A stretch of 64,000 nucleotides of DNA from contig JACPVI010000062.1 of assembly GCA_016191815.1 (NCBI GenBank), positions 1 through 64,000 on the forward strand, written 5' to 3'. Below the pieces are notes generated by a model. That model made no database searches. It saw only the letters and a list, made by a program, of their open reading frames with translations, and was not told the origin of the DNA. Both the position numbers and the translations under genes were made by a program. Positions within the stretch are counted from its first letter, which is position 1. Every line of letters begins with the position of its first letter. This stretch comes from Myxococcales bacterium. GTDB taxonomy: Bacteria > Myxococcota > Myxococcia > Myxococcales > Myxococcaceae. Shown in pieces: positions 49,855-54,984 of this stretch.

Positions 49855-51639
49855 CTACTCGATGGACTTGAGGTACAGCTCCTTCACCAGCGCCGGGTCC
49901 ACGAAGGGGTTCCGCTCGTTGTACCCGGTGAAGGTCGCCTCCCGCGCCGGGCCCCAGAGGAAGTCCGGGTTCGACGAGTAGGGCGCCCAGCCGCTGTTCA
50001 CCACCTTGCCGTTCTTCTCCTCCAGCCAGTACTGGTAGTTCACCGTCGAGCCGCCGCCGCCCAGCTCCACCTCCCGGTCCACGTAGGTGATCTTCCCGTC
50101 GCCCGCCGGGCCGTTGAACCCCACCAGCTTGCCCGAGGCCCAGTCAGGCTTGGTGGTGGCCTCCTTGTCCTCCACCTTCCAGAAGTTGTAGTTCCACACG
50201 TGGTCGCCGGAGTCCTTGTCCATCACCGCCGGCATCCCCGTCTTCAGCCATTCGCGGATGGTGGTGTGGAACAAGGCCGGGTCGTCCTTGCGGTCCTCGC
50301 GCCGCAAGACCGCGATGTCCTCGGCCTTGAGGGTCTTCACCTCTCCGCTGTTGGTCCGGATCTTTACCTCTGGGGGGAAGTTCTTCGTCAGCTCGACCCA
50401 GTCCTCGCCGGCGCGGCGCATCCCCTCCTGGTACATCTCCACTTGCGTCTCCAGCTTGCCGGTGACCGAGCTGCCGTTCTTGAGCCGGATGGTGTCCGGC
50501 CGCGCGTCGTAGCGGTTGCCGGCCCACTTGCTCTGCGGGCTCTGGCTGTCGGCGATCACCGTGAGCAGGCCCTTGATGTCCTGGGCGGTGAAGGTGACCC
50601 CGTTCAGGGTGACGTCCTTCTTCGGCTCCTTGAACAGGTTGCCCGCCAGCGCCACCTTGTCGCAGGAGCCCCACCAGCCCACCGACATGGTGCCGTCTTT
50701 CTTCCCGTCGGTGCCGAACTGCCCGTAGCCGTCGAGGAAGTCCCACTCCACGTTGGCGTCGATCTTCCCGTTCTTGTTGAAGTCCACCCCGGTGGTCCGC
50801 TCGGCGTCCTTCTCCGAGAGCATCGAGTCGGGGATGTATTGCCCGCTCTCCTTGTTCACCAGCCAGTTCAACGAGGGCGTGCGCTCGAACTTGAGCGCCC
50901 CCTCCTCCTTGCCCTTCGCCTTGAGCAGCTTGTCGAACTTGTCCAGCGCCCCGTCCTTCGCCCAGAGGTTGGAGGAGGGGGAGCCGTTCGGGTCGTTCAT
51001 GCTCCCGGCCATCGGCCAGTAGGTGGTGGTCCACGGCTTGTGGTTTGCCCGCACCGTGTACGCATCGGGGCTGTCGCCGAGCATCAGCTCCACCCCCGCC
51101 GCCACCCCGTCCTTGTCGTTGTCCGCGTTCACCATCGAGCCGAAGTTGAGCGAGCGGAGCGTCTCGCCGAACTCCTTCGCCGCCTTGGCCCGATCGCCCT
51201 CGTCCATCCCGGAGGTGAGCGTCTGGAAACGCGAGGCGTAGGCCTGGAAGAACTCGAAGGTGCGGTTGGCCTTGTCGTTCTCCGAGAGGGAAGCGTGCCC
51301 GACCAGCTCCGCCTGCACCGCCTGGTAGTCGGCCTTGAACCGGTTCGGGAGCGTCTTGGGTTCGGTCACCTCCGAGAGGCTGGGGGTCAGCTCGCGGACC
51401 GGCTTCGGCGTCCCGGTGGGAGGAGGAGGCGGGGCGCTCCCGAGGAAGGCCTCCAGGGTCTGCCGGCCCTTCACGGTGAACTTGTCGGCGAAATCCGGCG
51501 AGGTGAGCAAAGACCTCAGCTCGGCCTTCTCGGCGTCGGTGACTCCGTCCACCTTCGCCTTCTCGATGAGGGTCCGGGCGTCCCGTACGCCGATGCCGCC
51601 CCGAAGCAATGTCCTCGCAAGATCGCTGATCTGACCCAT
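49855..51639 (-). CDS. transglutaminase-elicitor-like protein, leaderless
   Basis: 594 residues from the ATG at 51639 (GGGAG 8 bases upstream). An N-terminal helical domain (residues ~1-70, KVDGVTDAEKAELRSLL) and a PPPP linker precede the enzyme part. WWGSCDKVALAGN puts the catalytic Cys at 326 and SGDHVWNYNFWK the His at 480; this Cys/His arrangement matches the GP42-type transglutaminase elicitors of oomycetes and their bacterial relatives. EF-hand-like loops DADN-type NADNDKDGVAAG and DFNKNGKIDAN suggest calcium binding. No signal peptide is present. Confidence 0.8.
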   Translation of the reverse strand: MGQISDLARTLLRGGIGVRDARTLIEKAKVDGVTDAEKAELRSLLTSPDFADKFTVKGRQTLEAFLGSAPPPPPTGTPKPVRELTPSLSEVTEPKTLPNRFKADYQAVQAELVGHASLSENDKANRTFEFFQAYASRFQTLTSGMDEGDRAKAAKEFGETLRSLNFGSMVNADNDKDGVAAGVELMLGDSPDAYTVRANHKPWTTTYWPMAGSMNDPNGSPSSNLWAKDGALDKFDKLLKAKGKEEGALKFERTPSLNWLVNKESGQYIPDSMLSEKDAERTTGVDFNKNGKIDANVEWDFLDGYGQFGTDGKKDGTMSVGWWGSCDKVALAGNLFKEPKKDVTLNGVTFTAQDIKGLLTVIADSQSPQSKWAGNRYDARPDTIRLKNGSSVTGKLETQVEMYQEGMRRAGEDWVELTKNFPPEVKIRTNSGEVKTLKAEDIAVLRREDRKDDPALFHTTIREWLKTGMPAVMDKDSGDHVWNYNFWKVEDKEATTKPDWASGKLVGFNGPAGDGKITYVDREVELGGGGSTVNYQYWLEEKNGKVVNSGWAPYSSNPDFLWGPAREATFTGYNERNPFVDPALVKELYLKSIE

Positions 51640-51657
51640 GGCGCTACTCCCGAGAAA

Positions 51658-51677
51658 GAGGGGCGACGCCGCCCCTC
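51658..51677 (-). promoter_or_regulatory. perfect hairpin in the 5' leader of the transglutaminase-like gene
   Basis: Arms GAGGGGCG (51658-51665) and CGCCCCTC (51670-51677) with a 4-base loop end 18 bases before the ATG, close enough to affect ribosome access. Confidence 0.45.
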
Positions 51678-51796
51678 GTTGAAACAGGCCCCCCTCGGGC
51701 CCGAACCGGCTTCGAAGCCTAGCCCAAGTGGGCCCCTCCATGCATCGAGCCCCCCGCCCTGCGGCGAATGGTGTTATCTAGGGCCCGGTCCTCCAG

Positions 51797-52276
51797 ATGA
51801 ACTCGCTGCGCTTCACCGTCCATCGGCGCCCGGACGGCGCGAACGCCGTCGCCCTCTCCGGGGCGATCGACGAGCGAGCCGACCTGGACGCGGTGGTCGC
51901 CGCCATCGGCGACACGCTGGAGGCAGTGTTGAACCTCGAAGGCATCGACCGCATCAACTCCGTCGGCGTGCTGCGTTGGGTCCGTTTCGTGCGGGCCCTC
52001 TCCACCCGCCACAAGGTGGTGCTGGAGATGCTCTCCTACCCGCTGGTGGCCCAGTCCCAGACGGTGGCCGGTTTCTTCGGGAAGGCCCAAGTCCTCTCCT
52101 GCCTGGCGCCCTACTTCTGCTCGAGCTGCCAGCAGGGCCGGATGGCGCTCGTCTCCTCCTCCGAGGTCTGCCGGGGTGGTCCCCCCCCGGCCCGGAGCTG
52201 CGAGGTGTGCGGCACCCAGATGAACTTCGACGAGGAGGACGAATACCTCTCCGTCCTCCGCTCGAGCGCGAGCTGA
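51797..52276 (+). CDS. STAS-domain protein with C-terminal zinc-finger tail
   Basis: 159 residues. The STAS fold is visible (AVALSGAIDERADLDAVVAA, then LNLEGIDRINSVGVLRWVRF), with Ser at the usual phospho-switch position in NSVGVLRW. The last ~55 residues add two Cys pairs (CSSCQ and CEVCG), a zinc-ribbon not typical of SpoIIAA-like antagonists. It precedes the ATPase-containing GGDEF protein by 2 bases; the pair would form an antagonist/kinase couple. Confidence 0.85.
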   Translation: MNSLRFTVHRRPDGANAVALSGAIDERADLDAVVAAIGDTLEAVLNLEGIDRINSVGVLRWVRFVRALSTRHKVVLEMLSYPLVAQSQTVAGFFGKAQVLSCLAPYFCSSCQQGRMALVSSSEVCRGGPPPARSCEVCGTQMNFDEEDEYLSVLRSSAS

Positions 52277-52278
52277 CG

Positions 52279-54984
52279 ATGTCTCTCGATCGCTCTCGGC
52301 TCAAGGACGTCGCCGTCCTGGACGTGGCCGGCTCCGTGGGCCGGCGGCTCGAGGAGAGCGTCAGGGCGACCGGCTTCTCCCCGCGGCCCTACCCGGGGCT
52401 GGATCCCCTCGGCGCGGCGCTCCAGTCTGGCGAGGCCTACCTCGCCGTCCTCGCCTACGAGGCCCTGAGCCCAGTGCCGGAGAAGGCCCTCCGCGCCCTT
52501 CGCCAGCGCGCCCCCGAGTCTCGGCTGTTGGTGGCCTTCCCCGATGGGGACCTGCGCCTTCGCCCAGTCGAGCCTTTGAGCCCTGGGCTGTTCGATGCGC
52601 TTTTGCCCAGGTCCACCCCTCCGAAGAAGCTGGGCGCGGTGCTCAAGCAAGCCTTCGCGGACCTTCTCATCGAGGCCCGGACGAGGGAGCTGGAGGGCCA
52701 AGACCCCGCCTCGGCGGAACGTCAGGCGCGAGCCCGCGCCCTCAGACAGCTCGGGGCCGCGCTCTTGGGCCAGCGCTCGGTCGACGGCGTCTTTCGCGAG
52801 CTGTGCGCCCACCTGCCTGGCCTCTCGGACGTGCAGGTGATCGGGCTGCTCGGCTTTGACAAGGGCCGCCCTCGCTTCGACAGCTTCCAGGTGCGCCCCG
52901 CCCAGCCCGAGGCCATCTGGGACCTGGCGGACGAGGTGACCATCACCGCCGCGCCGCACGCCTCGATGCCGCTGGGCCCGGAGGACCTGCTCGCCGAGCC
53001 CCGTTCGGGGGACCTGCGCGTCCCTCGGGAGCGCCTGTGGTCCTATCCGCTGGTCAGCGGAGGCGAGCTGCAGGGCTGCCTGGGGCTTTTGCTCGGCGGC
53101 CCACTCGGGGCGGAGGCGCGTTCGGAGCTGCCGTTGATTGGCCAGCTGGCCGCCTCGGCCATCCGGGCGGCGCGCCTCGCCTCCGAGCCGGACTTCGGGC
53201 CGCCGCTCGACGAGCTGACCGGGGTGTACGACCGGCACTTCCTCGGGCGGGCGCTGGAGGCGGAGTGGAGGCGTTCGCGCCGCTACAAGTCCCAGTTCTC
53301 GGTCGTCCTCTTGGACCTCGACTCGTTCGACCGGCTCAACGAGGCCCACGGGCACCTCGCCGGGGACGAGCTGCTCCGCGGGCTGGCCAGGGTGCTGCGG
53401 GAGTCGCTGCGCGACACCGACCTCGTCATCCGCTACGGGGGCGAGGAATTCCTCCTGCTCCTCCCGGAGACCGGTCCGAAAGAGGCCGAGGTGGTGCTCG
53501 AGCGCACCAGGCTGCTCCTCGAGCGGCAGCCGCTGCGCGCCCACGACACGCCGGTGCGCCTCTCTTTCAGCGCCGGGGTGGCTTCCTACCCCTCGGTGCC
53601 CGCGGAGGTGCCGGAAAAGCTCTTGCGCGCCGCGGAGGAGGCGCTCCGCGAGGCGAAGCGGGAGGGCGGAGGCCGATTCCGTCTCGCCTCCGAATCGAGC
53701 GCCGCGATTTCCTCCCGGCCCACCGGCCGGGCCAACAAGCGGCGCTTCCAGCGCACCGCCTCGGAGGTGAAGGTCGGCTTCCTCGAGCTGGCCGAGTTCG
53801 ACCCGAGGGCGGTGTCGATGGAGACCACCGACGTCTCGGCGGGAGGCGCCGCCATCCGTGGCCCGAGCGAGCACCTGAGGCGCAACGCCTACGCGCTGGT
53901 GTTCCTGGGCAACGACCAGCGGCCGGTCCTCTCGCGAGTGGTGTGGACCAGAGACTCCGAGAACGGCTTGCGCACCGCCGGCCTGGAGTTCGTCCGCGGC
54001 ACCGAGCTGCCCAGGGGCCCCTTCGCCCCAATGGGCAGAGCCAAGGCGCTGCTGCTCCTGGAGAGCACCGCCGTGCGGAGGGTGGTGGAACGGGTGGCCG
54101 CGGCCGCCCGCTGCGAGCCCAAGAGCATCGCCGCCACCCCGGAGGCCTTGGAGCGCGAGCGGCTGGAGGACTACGCGCTCGTGGTGGTGGGGGAGAGCGC
54201 CCTCAAAGGCGAGCTGGGGCAGAAGCTGGCCGAGCGGAGGTTGCGCCCCGGGCAGCCCTGGCGCCTGGTGGTGATCGGTGAGGCCGAGGACCGGCGGCGG
54301 GCCCTGGAGACCATCCACTCCCACCGCCTCACCCAGCTGCTCTCTCCCGAGTGTTCTCCCGAGGCGCTCTTCTCCACCTTGGCCAAGCTGGTGCTGGACG
54401 ACTTTTTCGGGGTGCGAAAATACCTGATGTCGGGCGCCTCCACCCGGTGGTGGACGGTGGCTGACGCCGAGCAGAAGGCGCAGGTCCTGGAGGGGATCGA
54501 GGAAGTAGCGCGCTCGGTCCAGTGCCACCCGCGGCTGGTGGACCTCCTGGTGGCCGCGGTGGACGAGATGCTGGTGAACGCGCTCTCCTCCCCGCGTTCC
54601 GGGCCGGAGGAGCCGCTGGACCCGGTGGTGGTGGAGTGCGGCTCGGACGGGCGGCTGTTGGCGGTAGCGGTGCGCGACGAGCACGGCCGCTTCCGCGCCG
54701 AGGAGATGTTTAGGGGAATCGGCGAGGCCTTGGAGTTGGAGGCGAAGGGCCTTCCGCCGGAGTCCTCCAAGGCCAACCTGGGCTTCCGCATCATGCTGAG
54801 CAACCTGAGCCACCTGGTAGTGAACGTCGACCCCGGCCGGTGCACTGAGATCATCGGGATCATCGACCTCAACCTGACGCTGAGGGCGCTCAGGGCGACT
54901 GCCCCCTCGGTGGGTCTGTTCACCCGCGAGCAGGAGCTGCCGCCCTTGCCGAAGGCCGCGCCGCGAAAGGATGGGGAAGGGTAG
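52279..54984 (+). CDS. REC-GAF-GGDEF-PilZ-REC-like-HATPase signalling protein
   Basis: 901 residues. In order: a receiver-like domain (1-125) without clear acidic pocket; GAF-like (150-310); GGDEF with intact GGEEF at 387-391 and the inhibitory RxxD (RDTD, 378-381); PilZ (488-590, KRRFQRTASEVKV and DVSAGGAAIRG); a second receiver-like domain; and a C-terminal RsbW/SpoIIAB-type ATPase (N-box DEMLVNAL near 762, VRDEHG near 799, NLGFRIML near 832). It should make c-di-GMP, sense it, and phosphorylate a STAS partner, the adjacent Zn-STAS protein. Domains are read from motifs; the coupling is inferred. Confidence 0.88.
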   Translation: MSLDRSRLKDVAVLDVAGSVGRRLEESVRATGFSPRPYPGLDPLGAALQSGEAYLAVLAYEALSPVPEKALRALRQRAPESRLLVAFPDGDLRLRPVEPLSPGLFDALLPRSTPPKKLGAVLKQAFADLLIEARTRELEGQDPASAERQARARALRQLGAALLGQRSVDGVFRELCAHLPGLSDVQVIGLLGFDKGRPRFDSFQVRPAQPEAIWDLADEVTITAAPHASMPLGPEDLLAEPRSGDLRVPRERLWSYPLVSGGELQGCLGLLLGGPLGAEARSELPLIGQLAASAIRAARLASEPDFGPPLDELTGVYDRHFLGRALEAEWRRSRRYKSQFSVVLLDLDSFDRLNEAHGHLAGDELLRGLARVLRESLRDTDLVIRYGGEEFLLLLPETGPKEAEVVLERTRLLLERQPLRAHDTPVRLSFSAGVASYPSVPAEVPEKLLRAAEEALREAKREGGGRFRLASESSAAISSRPTGRANKRRFQRTASEVKVGFLELAEFDPRAVSMETTDVSAGGAAIRGPSEHLRRNAYALVFLGNDQRPVLSRVVWTRDSENGLRTAGLEFVRGTELPRGPFAPMGRAKALLLLESTAVRRVVERVAAAARCEPKSIAATPEALERERLEDYALVVVGESALKGELGQKLAERRLRPGQPWRLVVIGEAEDRRRALETIHSHRLTQLLSPECSPEALFSTLAKLVLDDFFGVRKYLMSGASTRWWTVADAEQKAQVLEGIEEVARSVQCHPRLVDLLVAAVDEMLVNALSSPRSGPEEPLDPVVVECGSDGRLLAVAVRDEHGRFRAEEMFRGIGEALELEAKGLPPESSKANLGFRIMLSNLSHLVVNVDPGRCTEIIGIIDLNLTLRALRATAPSVGLFTREQELPPLPKAAPRKDGEG

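Follow-up and report, generated by a model that had tools for sequence, protein, structure and literature searches.

Partner switching and c-di-GMP in described systems

Control of diguanylate cyclases by partner switching is known from SiaABCD, HptB-HsbR-HsbA-HsbD (Pseudomonas aeruginosa) and BgrSTUWV-BgrR (Sinorhizobium meliloti), which combine a partner-switch kinase, a STAS protein and a cyclase and in which it matters whether the STAS protein is phosphorylated (PMC8457831, PMC5085249). An RsbW-like ATPase joined to a receiver is found in LvrC of Leptospira, a receiver-anti-sigma protein (PDB 9qih, PMC13269768), so the preliminary description of the present locus was slightly off in taking partner-switching kinases to be stand-alone proteins as a rule. 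Besides, c-di-GMP receptors linked to kinases have been described in SgmT of Myxococcus xanthus, with the order GAF-HK-REC-GGDEF (PMC3509222), and in ShkA of Caulobacter (PMC7010744).

Here we analysed a stretch of 64,000 nucleotides from a Myxococcales bacterium (the window), in which a protein of 901 residues carries a GGDEF domain, a PilZ domain and an ATPase and is encoded next to a small STAS protein with a four-cysteine tail (STAS-Zn). The locus resembles the Sia, Hsb and Bgr systems in bringing together a putative Ser/Thr partner-switch kinase, a STAS-type protein and a diguanylate cyclase, but in those systems kinase and cyclase are separate chains and control, as described, flows from the STAS protein to the cyclase. 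To our knowledge, none of the three has a built-in PilZ domain, and their STAS proteins are without a Cys4 tail. Like LvrC, the window protein places a receiver-like domain before an ATPase of RsbW/SpoIIAB fold, whereas LvrC has a canonical receiver with a phospho-Asp, no c-di-GMP modules and no described STAS-Zn partner. With SgmT and ShkA it shares the joining of a c-di-GMP-binding domain (an I-site GGDEF, or a pseudo-receiver) to a kinase ATPase, but both of those are histidine kinases with receivers as their targets rather than STAS kinases, and have no PilZ. ATPase fold, N-box, G1 box and STAS serine position are as in SpoIIAB-SpoIIAA and RsbW-RsbV, from which the window pair differs in the lack of an adjoining sigma factor, NSVG instead of DS[ST]G, the Cys4 tail, the fused sensors and an altered G2 box.

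The literature covered, to which most subscription papers did not belong, contained no description of a protein that combines a cyclase, a PilZ domain and a STAS kinase, nor of a STAS-Cys4 family of Myxococcota. The parts, and partner-switch control of separate cyclases, are already known, while their union in a single polypeptide, cyclase, PilZ and kinase together, appears to be undescribed. Such a chain touches two open fields, the specificity of c-di-GMP signals and the meeting of messenger and phosphorylation switches.

Organization of the gene pair

The two genes and the domains they encode were delineated as follows.

51797-52276, plus strand: STAS-Zn protein, 159 aa (translation, family alignment, PDB profile matches, conservation in 58 clusters)
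52279-54984, plus strand: fusion protein, 901 aa, pREC-GAF-GGDEF-PilZ-pREC-HATPase (translation, Pfam, AlphaFold2 model)
52279-52653, plus strand: N-terminal receiver-like domain, residues ~1-125 (alpha/beta order in the AlphaFold2 model; strand 3 LAVLAYE without Asp)
52711-53184, plus strand: GAF-like sensor domain, residues ~145-302 (weak Pfam GAF_2 match, 0.03; AlphaFold2 secondary structure)
53206-53688, plus strand: GGDEF domain (Pfam 310-464, E 1e-39, over cut-off; fold comparison)
53734-54018, plus strand: PilZ domain (Pfam 486-575, 3e-5, over cut-off; motif positions)
54034-54414, plus strand: second receiver-like domain, residues ~586-712 (alignments; the homologous domain in the model of the L068 fusion matches receivers, Z 13)
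54421-54933, plus strand: SpoIIAB/RsbW-type ATPase (Pfam HATPase_c_2 728-808, 5e-7, over cut-off; invariant residues; homologue model compared with SpoIIAB)

The STAS-Zn gene lies upstream and is separated from the fusion gene by 2 bp (TGA-CG-ATG); the coordinates, the gene lengths and this gap proved exact, and both genes lie where the preliminary description had placed them. A second pair of STAS and fusion genes in identical order was found on contig C37 of the same genome, with identities to the window pair of 43 % for the STAS protein and 41 % for the fusion protein (residues 11-894). As the two-gene unit recurs within the genome at 41-43 % identity, the pair is not a chance arrangement. 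An artefact of ORF calling was rejected on the strength of the same second copy, and an ordinary hybrid histidine kinase was rejected as a HisKA match is absent and the ATPase is of SpoIIAB type.

A search of 146 further genomes from the class, with a few best candidates scored per genome, detected no full-length relative of the 901-residue protein, and a pattern scan with the protein across 84,980 species, which detects close relatives only, returned GGDEF-only relatives and no full-length one. No sigma factor occurs among the neighbours of the window pair that were examined, in line with the preliminary description; a target may be encoded elsewhere. No PP2C gene adjoins the pair either; PP2C genes are present elsewhere in the genome. 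The divergent neighbour on the minus strand (49855-51741) matches the transglutaminase-elicitor family PF16683, which is best known from oomycetes.

Cyclase, PilZ and receiver-like domains

The AlphaFold2 model of the whole 901-residue chain has a mean pLDDT of 77, with the PilZ part at low confidence. The GGDEF domain carries GGEEF at 387-391 and an I-site of the RxxD type (RDTD) at 378-381, along with the metal, base and K442-type residues D346, D348, N354, D363 and K460, and it matches 3ign (VIA Z 25.3, rmsd 1.7 over 166 residues). The characters expected of a diguanylate cyclase, namely GG[DE]EF, RxxD and the metal and base residues, were all found with one exception: the position equivalent to the phosphate-contact Arg R446 of PleD is Gly464. 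Judged on its motifs, the domain is likely but not certain to be an active cyclase. A fold search with the full model returned GGDEF matches only and is uninformative either way on the remaining domains.

The PilZ domain contains both c-di-GMP motifs of PilZ receptors (RxxxR and [DN]xSxxG), as RRFQR at 488 and DVSAGG at 518. Both receiver-like domains are devoid of the phospho-acceptor Asp, with LAVLAYE and LVVVGES in strand 3, and were therefore classed as pseudo-receivers only; the second is the family-typical companion of the ATPase. In the C37 paralogue the GGDEF motif is destroyed (EGAQL), with the I-site (RETD) and both PilZ motifs intact. The genome offers a built-in comparison between two paralogues, one with a probably live cyclase and the other with a dead one.

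The STAS-Zn protein and the ATPase domain

The STAS-Zn protein consists of a STAS fold (residues 1-105) with a candidate phospho-Ser55 (RINSVG), followed by a Cys4 tail (C108xxC111...C135xxC138). Pfam and NCBIfam gave no STAS match to the 159-residue protein alone, and the profile of its family matches solved STAS domains of the SpoIIAA and RsfB types (4hyl, 5e-5; SpoIIAA 1th8_B, 0.02). The four cysteines are kept in 56-58 of the 58 family clusters and Ser55, at the position of SpoIIAA Ser58, in 48; nearly all clusters without this serine are second copies in tandem STAS kinases, L138 being the one that is not clearly so.

The ATPase shows an N-box (DEMLVNA from 762, with E763 and N767), a G1 box (RDEHG from 799, with D800 and G803) and a G2 box (KANLGF). 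E763, N767, D800 and G803 are invariant across the 37 ATPase family clusters. The first glycine of the G2 box, present in 35 of the 37 clusters, is absent only from the window fusion, where it is Asn833, and from the C37 paralogue, where it is Ser; the second glycine (G835) is kept. Turnover of ATP by the window ATPase is likely but not certain from these residues, and the loss of the first G2 glycine lowers our confidence in its kinase activity. With that glycine replaced, the ATPase of the fusions could be a binding-only domain.

The profile of the ATPase family gave no significant match among PDB sequences, so a fold comparison was required. The ATPase region of the window model has pLDDT mostly at 80-95, and the fold evidence was taken from a homologue, a natural ATPase/STAS-Zn fusion from contig C1 of the window genome (AlphaFold2 pLDDT 82), which shares 23 % identity with the ATPase region of the window protein. 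Its ATPase superimposes on SpoIIAB 1th8_A with Z 14.0 and rmsd 2.2, 131 of 132 residues being aligned, and on RsbW 6m37 with Z 12.7. Receivers were matched by the first domain of this fusion at Z 13, and for the two domains together the best single match is LvrC (PDB 9qih). This supports the C-terminal domain of the 901-residue protein as a member of the SpoIIAB/RsbW-fold family.

The preliminary description had placed the GGEEF and RxxD motifs correctly and had recognized the PilZ domain, now over the Pfam cut-off, and a STAS domain with two extra Cys pairs, which the profile matches and cysteine conservation bear out. Its domain list for the large protein (GGDEF, PilZ, ATPase) holds, but it had missed the GAF-like domain and the two receiver-like regions; likewise, the fold and N-box of its RsbW/SpoIIAB-like ATPase stand, and the G2 element is not intact. 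The doubts it had raised, that the C-terminus might not fold as a HATPase or might lack the N-box Glu and Asn or the G1 Asp, are answered by the Pfam match, the homologue model and the conserved residues.

Pairing of the ATPase and STAS-Zn genes across Myxococcota

We searched 195 Myxococcota genomes with one profile for the ATPase and its receiver-like domain and another for the STAS-plus-Cys4 protein. The ATPase was found in 78 genomes, STAS-Zn in 77 and both in 71, and a STAS-Zn gene lies within 2.5 kb of 75 of the 92 ATPase hits, so the earlier worry that the STAS gene might not co-occur is allayed; many of the loci are orthologues, and the pair and neighbour counts are therefore not independent. 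The pairs extend over eight families, Myxococcaceae and seven others, and in three genomes both proteins form one chain (G000:C1, G090, G049). In Myxococcaceae the ATPase gene lies upstream of a gene for a Ser/Thr kinase whose N-terminus carries STAS-Zn domains in tandem. With this adjacency and the three fusions, STAS-Zn is supported as the genomic partner of the ATPase family throughout the phylum, and its window member has the phosphorylatable residue expected of a STAS partner, Ser55.

Phosphatases are also drawn into these neighbourhoods. Of 24 strong SpoIIE/PP2C genes (13 genomes), nine have a family ATPase at a distance of at most 8 kb against 0.12 expected, a statistic that is made too optimistic by Myxococcaceae orthologues, and compact ATPase/STAS/PP2C clusters occur in G161, G162 and G159.

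Recurrent association with c-di-GMP domains

Domains for c-di-GMP accompany the ATPase family in other lineages as well. Genome G194 encodes four ATPase-PilZ fusions (L141, L143, L155, L156), G192 a long ATPase protein with an N-terminal PilZ (L139) and G189 a PilZ-to-ATPase chain within one open frame, the cyclase being absent from all of them. Gene rows of the orders ATPase-PilZ-STAS (L142), GGDEF-PilZ-STAS (L158) and PilZ-STAS (L161) were also found, G159 has an ATPase-STAS-PAS-GGDEF operon (L130), and a PilZ-FHA gene adjoins a triad at L131. Seven genomes contributed 19 ATPase loci, of which 13 have a PilZ or GGDEF domain within the gene or within 3 kb (1.8 expected), an illustrative test, as the genomes were chosen after the hits had been seen and the loci are partly paralogous. 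Most ATPase-STAS pairs of Myxococcaceae occur with a Ser/Thr kinase and without a PilZ or GGDEF link.

Some of these loci show further features. The chains at L139 (3-4433) and L140 (4062-8000) are very long, with PilZ at one end, the family ATPase at the other and a charged, coiled or TPR middle part, and a STAS-Zn gene adjoins on the opposite strand. At L142, L158 and L161 the STAS-Zn proteins have TPR tails and are preceded by PilZ-TPR genes, and at L158 by a REC-GGDEF gene as well.

Candidate function of the pair

We consider it moderately probable, in line with the proposal of the preliminary description, that the pair is a partner switch gated by c-di-GMP, with Ser55 of the adjoining STAS-Zn protein as the phosphorylation site used by the ATPase. 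Domains and motifs, the duplicated pair, the conserved ATPase-STAS linkage and the recurrent PilZ/GGDEF and PP2C linkage were computed; phosphotransfer, c-di-GMP binding, the direction of control and the target are what we infer. Inputs at the GAF domain and the N-terminal pseudo-receiver would set the local cyclase, and c-di-GMP from this or other enzymes would bind PilZ and the GGDEF I-site. Binding may then move the second pseudo-receiver and the ATPase and alter the binding and phosphorylation of STAS-Zn, which, free or phosphorylated, would either be retained or be passed on to a downstream partner; a PP2C phosphatase from another locus could reset it. Counting against the gated switch are the loss of the G2 glycine in just the two fusions, the missing R446 equivalent, the lack of an adjoining PP2C or sigma factor, and the absence of PilZ/GGDEF from most ATPase-STAS pairs of Myxococcaceae.

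Information may instead flow in reverse, with STAS-Zn and its phosphorylation state controlling the cyclase, the ATPase serving as STAS docking or kinase part, c-di-GMP as the output and PilZ with the I-site as feedback. We regard this as unlikely and yet as a serious alternative, because the described precedents (HsbA-HsbD, SiaC-SiaD, BgrV-BgrR) all run from STAS to cyclase (PMC8457831, PMC5085249); a window cyclase with both GGEEF and RxxD and the PAS-GGDEF gene after ATPase-STAS in G159 also fit it. However, synthesis could not be the output of the C37 paralogue, which has the same architecture and a destroyed cyclase motif, nor of the G194 and G192 proteins, in which the ATPase is fused to PilZ and not to GGDEF. 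As PilZ is kept where the cyclase is dead or absent, c-di-GMP is favoured as an input to the ATPase over an output.

Rather improbable, though kept alive by the lost G2 glycine, is a scaffold in which the ATPase is without catalysis and holds STAS-Zn in a c-di-GMP- or nucleotide-dependent manner, phosphorylation being left to other family ATPases or Ser/Thr kinases. Pseudo-receivers without Asp would suit such a role, as would a genome with 13 STAS-Zn matches and two further family ATPases, but N-box Glu/Asn and G1 Asp/Gly are retained in both copies despite 41 % identity, which is unusual for a dead site. An accidental fusion of an independent cyclase and ATPase, uncoupled in function, is scarcely credible: the architecture was found in only one genome of the class (a few best candidates scored per genome), but the whole of it and its adjoining partner are retained in two paralogues at that same divergence, and c-di-GMP domains recur with the ATPase family in other lineages.

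If the c-di-GMP-gated switch is correct, c-di-GMP would act here via Ser phosphorylation and not via transcription factors or histidine kinases. Self-contained synthesis, reading and a switch kinase beside its likely substrate would make a minimal circuit that could be rebuilt from two purified proteins. On a broader scale we propose, tentatively and leaning slightly to the doubtful side, that Myxococcota possess a large undescribed class of pseudo-receiver-ATPase and STAS-Cys4 pairs that has repeatedly and independently taken up c-di-GMP sensing. In its most extreme member, the window pair, one chain would make c-di-GMP, read it and use it to phosphorylate a STAS protein. The wider family ties c-di-GMP, STAS proteins, Ser/Thr kinases and PP2C phosphatases together in social bacteria.

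Other loci of the window genome

Three further loci of the genome were noted. At L065 (contig C72, 3457-6456) tandem STAS-Zn domains, a Ser/Thr kinase and a C-terminal PilZ are encoded in one chain. A dense partner-switch cluster at L064 (contig C58, 5051-15938) has a STAS-Zn gene and three stand-alone HATPase_c_2 genes, together with two plain STAS antagonists (MNSS motifs), a SpoIIE phosphatase, two histidine kinases and a receiver. A tight operon on the minus strand at L066 (contig C32, 2459-11983) includes a pseudo-receiver-ATPase, a tandem STAS-Zn Ser/Thr kinase, a solute-binding protein and a HAMP-histidine kinase of 1391 aa with four receivers and a SpoIIE phosphatase.
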